49,784 bases of DNA. It comes from Dehalococcoidia bacterium (GTDB lineage: Bacteria; Chloroflexota; Dehalococcoidia; Lucifugimonadales; UBA3495). Below, in pieces: positions 5,764-8,328 of this stretch (its first letter is position 1; every line of letters starts with the position of its first letter). The notes below the pieces were generated by a model, which had not been told where the DNA came from, searched no databases, and was given only the letters and a program-made list of their open reading frames with translations. The stretch is taken from positions 1 to 49,784 of the forward strand of contig SHYG01000008.1 of NCBI GenBank assembly GCA_009692925.1, in the 5' to 3' direction. The translations under genes were made by a program, and so were the position numbers.

Positions 5764-6930
5764 GTGAAAATCGCCATGGTGTCGCCCTATGACTACACTT
5801 GGCCCGGCGGAGTTACCGCCCACGTCTCCCAACTGACCCGGGAAATGACCCGGCTGGGCCATGAAATGCAGGTTCTGGCGCCCCACTCTCCCTCCCGCCC
5901 CCTAGGCTTAGACGAATCAGGCAATTTTGTGCCCCTGGGGCGGTCCGTGCCGGTGCCCAGCGGCGGCTCCGTGGCGCGGGTATCTCTGTCCTGGTGGCTG
6001 TCCCGCAAGATTCAGGCGCTGCTGGAGCGGGAAGCCTTCGACGTAATCCACCTCCACGAGCCGCTGGCCCCCGTGTTGCCCCTTTGCGTGCTGGAGTACT
6101 CCAACACCGTGAACGTGGGCACCTTTCACTCCTTCGCCAATAGCCAGCACCTGTACAAGCTCAGTCACCCGCTGGTCAAGCGGTGGCATCAGCGACTGCA
6201 CGGCAGCATCGCCGTGTCCCCGGCAGCCCGCCGCCACGTAAGCGAAGTTTACCCCGGCGACTACCAGATCATCCCCAACGGCATTGACCTTGCCCACTTC
6301 ACCAACCACGCTGCCCCCTGGCCCCAGTACCTGGACGGCAAGACCAACATCCTGTTTGTAGGGCGAATGGAGAAGCGCAAGGGTCTGCGGTACCTGCTGG
6401 AGGCCTACGGGCGGCTCAAGTGGGACCTACCCAACACGCGGCTGCTGGTGGCGGGTCCCGGGAACCTGGATCAGGAGTCCCAGCGGTTGCTCAGCGCCCG
6501 CGAGCTGGGCGACGTGGTGCTGCTGGGCGGGGTGCCCCAGGCCGACTTGCCCCGCTACTATGCCACCGCCGACATCTTCTGCTCCCCGGCCACCGGATCG
6601 GAGAGCTTTGGCATCGTGTTGCTGGAGGCGATGGCCGCGGGCAAGCCCATCGTGGCCTCCAACATTGAAGGCTACAGCGGGGTGATCGCCCACGGCAAGC
6701 AGGGGCTGCTATGCCCGCCGCGAGACGCCGGCGCGCTCACCGATGCGCTGGCCTACCTGGTGCGCAACCCCGGAGTAGCGCAGCGATTGGGCGCCACCGG
6801 CCGGGGCATGGTGCAGCGCTACCGCTGGCAGGTGGTGGCCCGCCAGGTGGAAGACTACTACTATCAGTGCCTGGACCGGGCCAGGCCCTCTCGAAATAAG
6901 CATGGCCGCACTGGGAAGAGAACAGCTTAG
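5764..6930 (+). CDS. GT4-family glycosyltransferase (PimA-like; GTG start)
   Basis: VSPYDYTWPGGVTAHV, FVGRMEKRKGLRYLLEAY, SPATGSESFGIVLLEAMAAGKPIVASNIEGY. Confidence 0.88.
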   Translation: MKIAMVSPYDYTWPGGVTAHVSQLTREMTRLGHEMQVLAPHSPSRPLGLDESGNFVPLGRSVPVPSGGSVARVSLSWWLSRKIQALLEREAFDVIHLHEPLAPVLPLCVLEYSNTVNVGTFHSFANSQHLYKLSHPLVKRWHQRLHGSIAVSPAARRHVSEVYPGDYQIIPNGIDLAHFTNHAAPWPQYLDGKTNILFVGRMEKRKGLRYLLEAYGRLKWDLPNTRLLVAGPGNLDQESQRLLSARELGDVVLLGGVPQADLPRYYATADIFCSPATGSESFGIVLLEAMAAGKPIVASNIEGYSGVIAHGKQGLLCPPRDAGALTDALAYLVRNPGVAQRLGATGRGMVQRYRWQVVARQVEDYYYQCLDRARPSRNKHGRTGKRTA

Positions 6931-7525
6931 GGCCGCGGTCCTCCGCTTCGTGGAGCTGCCGGGCGCCCGGTTCCTGCGGGCGCTGGGGCTGACGCCCAAC
7001 GGCGTGACGCTGCTGGGGTTTGCCTTGACGGTAGTGGGCGCCTGCCTGGCGGCGCTGGGCTGGCTGCCCGCCGGCGGCGTGGTGTTTCTGGTAGGCGGCG
7101 GCCTGGACTTGATGGACGGCGCCCTGGCCCGGCTTAACGGCACCGCCAGCCCCTTTGGCGCGCTGCTGGACTCGGTGTTCGACCGCTTGGGGGAGGCCGC
7201 CCTCTTCGTGGGGCTGGGGGTCTACGCCCTGCGGGCCGGGTTCAGCCCCAACTACCTGCTGTTCTTCATGCTCTCCCTGCTGCTGGCCCTGGTCTTCTCC
7301 CAAGGGGTGAGCTACCTGCGCGCCCGCGGCGAGGGGCTGGGCGTCTTCAGCAAGGCGGGCCTCATGACCCGCACTGAGCGGGTGATACTCCTGGGGCTGG
7401 GCTTAATCATCCAGCGCATTGAGTGGGTGCTGGTGCTCATCTCCGTGGTGTCGTGTTTCACCCTGTTCCAGCGCATGTTCGCCATCCGCCGGGAGCTGGA
7501 GCGGGGTGCGCCCCCCTTACCCTAA
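6902..7525 (+). CDS. CDP-alcohol phosphatidyltransferase, likely phosphatidylinositol(-phosphate) synthase
   Basis: DGALARLNGTASPFGALLDSVFD matches DGx2ARx8Gx3Dx3D; adjacent to ino1 and a PimA-like gene. Confidence 0.85.
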   Translation: MAALGREQLRAAVLRFVELPGARFLRALGLTPNGVTLLGFALTVVGACLAALGWLPAGGVVFLVGGGLDLMDGALARLNGTASPFGALLDSVFDRLGEAALFVGLGVYALRAGFSPNYLLFFMLSLLLALVFSQGVSYLRARGEGLGVFSKAGLMTRTERVILLGLGLIIQRIEWVLVLISVVSCFTLFQRMFAIRRELERGAPPLP

Positions 7526-7617: not shown

Positions 7618-8328
7618 ATGACGCCCAGGCCCATCATCTCGGAGCAGGACAAGGCCCAACTGAAGCGGGGCTTCCGCAAGGACCTGGAGGGCGAGGTCCG
7701 GCTCCGCCTGTTCACCCAAAAGCCTTCCCCCCTGACCATTCCCGGCCGCGATTGCCCTTCCTGCCCGCAGACCCAACAACTCATGGAGGAGCTGGCCGGG
7801 CTCTCGCCCAAGCTGCGGCTGGAGACCGTTGACGCCTACTCCCAGCCGGAGATTGCCCGCCAGTGCGGGGTTACCCGCATCCCGGCAGTGGTGCTCAGCG
7901 GCGATGATTCGGCGCGGGTGAAGTTCTACGGCATCCCAATGGGGTTCGAACTGGTGACCATCATCGAGGCCATCAAGACCATTTCCCGGGGAGTCAGCCC
8001 CCTGAGCATGGAGACCCGCAAGGGGTTGCGGCAAGTGAACCAGCCGGTGCATATCCAAGTATTCGTGACACCCGCTTGACCCCATTGCCCGCCGATGGGC
8101 CGGTTGGCCCATGCCATGGCCCTGGAGAGCCCCCTCATCTCTGCCGACGTGGTGGAGGTGCAGGAGTTTCCGTCCCTGGCCTCGATGTACGGCGTGCGGT
8201 CGGTGCCGCTGACCGTGATTAACGAGAGCATCCGGGCGCTGGGCGCGTTGCCGGAAGCGGATCTGTTACAGAAGGTGCTGCAAGCCGGGGTGCGACCCAC
8301 GCCGGAAGGCGATGCCGGCCAGGACTGA
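7618..8328 (+). CDS. Candidate selenoprotein: two-domain glutaredoxin-like protein disulfide oxidoreductase with in-frame TGA (Sec, codon 154) in a UPHC motif
   Basis: ORFs 7618..8079 and 8095..8328 share one frame, separated only by TGA 8077-8079 and 5 codons. N-domain has CPSC; C-domain reads [10 protein letters not shown]-[TGA][48 protein letters not shown], a contiguous thioredoxin fold. Confidence 0.8.
8095..8112 (+). promoter_or_regulatory. Candidate bacterial SECIS hairpin
   Basis: ATGGGCC-GGTT-GGCCCAT: perfect 7-bp stem, GGUU apical loop, loop starting 22 nt after the in-frame TGA. Confidence 0.65.

Follow-up and report, generated by a model that had tools for sequence, protein, structure and literature searches.

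A predicted selenoprotein of the TIGR02187 protein disulfide oxidoreductase family in a SAR202-type Dehalococcoidia genome

The window analysed here is a stretch of 49,784 nucleotides from a Dehalococcoidia bacterium (contig SHYG01000008.1). Between nucleotides 7618 and 8328 it carries an intact gene for a two-thioredoxin-fold protein disulfide oxidoreductase (PDO), in which the in-frame TGA at 8077–8079 almost certainly encodes selenocysteine (Sec). This reading is drawn from comparative sequence data, namely the conservation of the TGA among related genomes, the selection acting on both sides of it, the Sec machinery of the source genome and a putative SECIS hairpin. The features referred to below are as follows.

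6902..7525, + strand: CDP-alcohol phosphatidyltransferase, PI-phosphate synthase-like (below the family cut-off); upstream neighbour, syntenic, in the INO1-GT4-PIPS cluster
7618..8328, + strand: complete predicted selenoprotein gene, two-thioredoxin-fold PDO (PDO/TIGR02187), 236 aa, ATG start, terminal TGA
7753..7764, + strand: N-terminal active-site CPSC (C46, C49)
8077..8079, + strand: in-frame TGA, predicted Sec154, first residue of the C-terminal UPHC motif (VFVTPA-U-PHCPP)
8086..8088, + strand: predicted resolving Cys157 (TGC) of UPHC
8095..8112, + strand: putative bacterial SECIS hairpin, ATGGGCC-GGTT-GGCCCAT; 7-bp stem, GGUU loop at 8102–8105, 22 nt from UGA to loop
8396..8869, + strand: ribH (lumazine synthase); downstream neighbour, syntenic in close relatives

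The gene and its predicted product

The original prediction held that two open reading frames at this locus are one frame broken only by the TGA at 8077–8079, and translation bears this out: the sole internal stop falls at codon 154, after which the frame stays open up to the terminal TGA at 8326–8328. The position of the start codon is the same in the homolog of a SAR202 cluster bacterium (L090). Both cysteines of the CPSC motif and Cys157 are intact in the translation, as had been claimed.

The 236 amino acid product matches the NCBIfam model TIGR02187 (PDO_seleno_TRX) with 226.9 bits against a cut-off of 185 (residues 9–223, profile positions 2–209 of 209), carries the UxxC motif of this family as U154-P-H-C157, and has a Pfam match to Thioredoxin_3. 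The PDO of Pyrococcus furiosus (1a8l) aligns with residues 6–223 (E-value 2.6e-31), that is, over the full length of the protein. Position 154 lies opposite the first Cys of the C-terminal CPYC of 1a8l, where the window protein would have Sec (UPHC); the TGA had accordingly been placed correctly at the first catalytic Cys of the C-terminal domain, and the naming as a PDO-type glutaredoxin-like protein was also right. On this alignment the product is predicted to comprise two thioredoxin folds, each with a CxxC-type site, as in the Pyrococcus enzyme. Related solved PDO chains are 1j08, 2ywm and 2ayt, to which the PDO of Sulfolobus solfataricus may be added. The N-terminal domain of AhpF (1zyn, 1hyu) has tandem thioredoxin folds in common with the product and a weak sequence match; in contrast to AhpF, the window protein is free-standing, lacks a flavoprotein part and possesses redox-competent residues at both sites.

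The conserved neighbours (inositol phosphate synthase INO1, GT4, PI-phosphate synthase and ribH) yield no functional clue. Homologs outside the INO1-GT4-PIPS cluster stand next to unrelated genes, among them those for RecA, a rhodanese, a universal stress protein and a peptidase.

Conservation of the TGA and the Sec machinery

A search of 147 related genomes recovered a PDO homolog in 64. Codon 154 in these is TGA in 29 (the source genome included), TGC or TGT in 10, and a codon for Asp, Ser, Asn or Glu in 23, the remaining two being fragments without the codon. Counted by locus, codon 154 was readable in 72 different loci, of which 36 have TGA, 11 have Cys (TGC/TGT) and 25 have a codon for Asp, Ser, Asn or Glu; the recurrence of the same TGA in 36 loci excludes chance. 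The expectation that TGA would alternate only with TGC or TGT therefore held for the 11 Cys homologs and failed for the 25 others. TGA members are also found in Myxococcota. No further stop was present inside the gene in any of the 29 TGA members among the 147 related genomes, and unrelated nonsense codons, for which the relatives were also to be checked, are absent from those that bear the TGA.

The homolog in L090 is 76% identical and keeps the TGA. Between it and the window gene dN/dS is 0.135 on the 5' side of the TGA and 0.205 on the 3' side, with dS of about 1. A pseudogene, broken at codon 154 by a point nonsense mutation and drifting since, would account for the interrupted frame, and many close relatives do lack a catalytic residue at 154. 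This reading is very improbable, since the TGA is common to the window gene, L090 and some 30 divergent genomes, purifying selection persists 3' of it, and there are no other stops or frameshifts. A sequencing or assembly error that turned TGC into TGA is more improbable still: the two codons are one base apart and the source is a draft metagenome assembly, but separately assembled genomes show the same TGA, and the hairpin downstream of it is conserved at the nucleotide level.

Three cases call for separate comment. In one genome (G126, locus L084) the PDO homolog lies in two overlapping pieces in different frames, which a frameshift or an assembly error may explain. A contig filed under the archaeal Candidatus Poseidoniales (L129) bears a TGA-PDO closely like those of Chloroflexota and is probably misbinned. 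Two near-identical TGA-PDO copies in G052 (L037 and L085; also L111 and L102; OX638353.1) lie one towards each end of a 3.4-Mb contig; probably either a circular chromosome was left with its overlap untrimmed, or the gene was recently duplicated.

The source genome is a draft of 2.07 Mb in 101 contigs and is 91% complete. The genes selA, selB, selD and that for tRNA-Sec, the search for which had been proposed as a check on the prediction, are all present: tRNA-Sec (66 bits, anticodon TCA), selA (554.7 bits), selB (309 bits; 334 bits when in-frame neighbours are included) and selD (399 bits). The last (contig C38, 11798–12721, - strand) carries one in-frame TGA, in HCAGUAAK, and its product is itself a predicted selenoprotein, so that the PDO gene is apparently not the only one in this genome to be decoded with Sec. 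Such machinery is common in the order, selA being found in 125, tRNA-Sec in 124 and selB in 130 of the 147 genomes. Among the 29 genomes with a TGA-PDO, 24 have selA, selB and tRNA-Sec together and none lacks all three. The PDO gene is present and all three are absent in two good-quality genomes, both with a Cys codon (G080, 97% complete, and G091, 91%), and in G043 (75%; Asn); such genomes are few, so that the correlation of machinery with codon is supportive rather than decisive. In locus L001 the tRNA-Sec gene (1501–1597) follows directly on a thioredoxin-like gene (917–1477; WCGPCKM).

An altered genetic code with TGA assigned genome-wide to Trp or Gly would also place a TGA in frame. It is given no more credence than a sequencing error. 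The PP2C, PDO and ribH genes of the window end in TGA, which shows that the codon is not reassigned; a Sec-type tRNA with a TCA anticodon and selA/selB are present; and the sense codons at 154 in homologs specify Cys, Ser, Asp, Asn or Glu, never Trp or Gly. For practical purposes a pseudogene, a sequencing error and a code change are excluded, given that relatives have the same TGA, that selection continues 3' of it and that TGA also serves as a terminator. The machinery, the conservation of the TGA in independently assembled genomes and the lack of extra nonsense codons in TGA-bearing relatives all support the original proposal that UGA is read as Sec, giving a 236 amino acid protein with U154.

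The putative SECIS hairpin

A hairpin of -11.9 kcal/mol begins 15 nt downstream of the TGA. The bacterial SECIS model, as set out in PMC13188914, has a loop of 3–9 nt, a G in the first two loop positions and a spacing of 16–37 nt, and with its 7-bp stem, its small loop starting with GG and its position in relation to the UGA the window hairpin fits that description. As coded here, these published criteria were passed by 77% of random codons in the window genes; the model is non-specific in GC-rich DNA, and was rejected as evidence. Because it is so permissive, only the comparative signal of the hairpin counts, and since an Rfam search of the gene region gave no RNA family match, the hairpin was likewise judged by comparison.

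All 18 nucleotides of the hairpin (8095–8112) are identical in the window gene and L090, despite a synonymous divergence of about 1. Measured against codon-matched synonymous controls, hairpin stability has a mean z of -1.64 in TGA members (n=31), -0.36 in Cys members and -0.21 in non-thiol members (Mann-Whitney p of about 1e-8, uncorrected for relatedness). A tree-aware test pointed in the same direction (3.1 to 0.0 of 8 pairs) and was not significant, with only 8 independent pairs; the 61-nt region folded alone gave a z of -0.99, too little to be informative. The wobble pair 3–15 joins the third position of codon 160 to that of codon 164, both mostly free to vary silently. Of the 37 TGA members, 34 have G-C, C-G, U-A or G-U there; of the 36 members without TGA, 17 form a standard pair. 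The data point to an in-frame SECIS hairpin just 3' of the UGA, conserved and covarying in TGA members, as a putative SelB site. SelB bound to the hairpin at 8095–8112 would bring Sec-tRNA to the UGA at 8077–8079.

Function, loss of Sec and known relatives

In Sulfolobus, electrons pass from NADPH to thioredoxin reductase, PDO and peroxiredoxins, and the main thiol-transfer site of PDO is the C-terminal one (PMC7465337). The source genome has two thioredoxin reductase-like genes (341.6 and 327.3 bits, just below the TIGR01292 cut-off of 343.45). Together, the Sulfolobus pathway and these two genes suggest a reductase in which Sec154 would be the nucleophile of the C-terminal UPHC site and Cys157 would resolve, with Cys46 and Cys49 providing a further dithiol. 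If the protein works like the PDOs characterised so far, electrons would flow from thioredoxin reductase through PDO to disulfides or peroxiredoxin-type partners. A thioredoxin reductase-fed, two-site disulfide reductase is accordingly put forward as the likely function, the assignment of reductant and substrate being about an even call.

In the window's own family (L023–L031, L033, L035, L036, L039, L045, L048, L062, L067 and L069–L071), 19 of the 20 other homologs have Asp, Ser, Asn or Glu at position 154 and a single one (L026) has Cys; 13 of the 20 genomes possess selA, selB and tRNA-Sec together. As one family member has Cys, this residue is a possible intermediate on the way to the non-thiol state. 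The N-terminal CxxC is kept in all 25 non-thiol members and in nearly all homologs, and Cys157 is retained in 15 of the 25. Their C-terminal domains are constrained (dN/dS 0.065–0.14 in close pairs), and gene order is retained around the non-thiol homologs where checked. The tree, built on an alignment that included column 154 itself and so carries a small bias, implies some five transitions into or out of the non-thiol state, and well-supported branches require at least four of these. These observations lead us to favour, with some reserve, the view that in SAR202-type Dehalococcoidia Sec has repeatedly been lost to Asp, Ser, Asn or Glu and not to Cys alone, mostly with Sec decoding kept, the Sec site being an optional module on a conserved N-terminal dithiol. 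This is the reverse of Sulfolobus PDO, in which the C-terminal site is the principal one.

UGA recoding in general competes with termination, and the codon may also serve as a regulated stop, yielding a 153 amino acid protein that has the N-terminal site alone under selenium shortage, and the 236 amino acid selenoprotein when selenium is available. Such a switch is compatible with Sec decoding and would be added to it, and relatives that have lost the C-terminal nucleophile do retain the N-terminal CxxC. It is nevertheless unlikely, if less so than a pseudogene, for the truncated form has no support as stable or useful, and the whole C-terminal domain is still encoded and constrained in the non-thiol relatives.

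A selenoprotein family of the TIGR02187 type was reported in 2006 in Carboxydothermus and Symbiobacterium (PMC1794560), is listed in PMC13188914 and PMC9312934, and occurs in Asgard archaea (PMC11227280). With the known TIGR02187/AhpF-N-terminal-homolog selenoproteins the window protein shares the family model, matched above cut-off, and the UxxC motif; it differs from them in its host, a SAR202-type member of the Dehalococcoidia (Chloroflexota). In the portions of the literature on the family that were consulted, no mention of Chloroflexota or SAR202-type hosts was found. The window protein is an additional member of an already known selenoprotein family.

Standard annotation splits this gene in two, in a widespread bacterial group whose SAR202-type genomes carry a conserved predicted selenoprotein PDO. 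Position 154 varies among Sec, Cys, Ser and Asp in genes that are otherwise retained, as are their neighbours. These homologs form a natural series for studying what Sec adds to a thioredoxin-fold enzyme with two sites, and what allows its loss.
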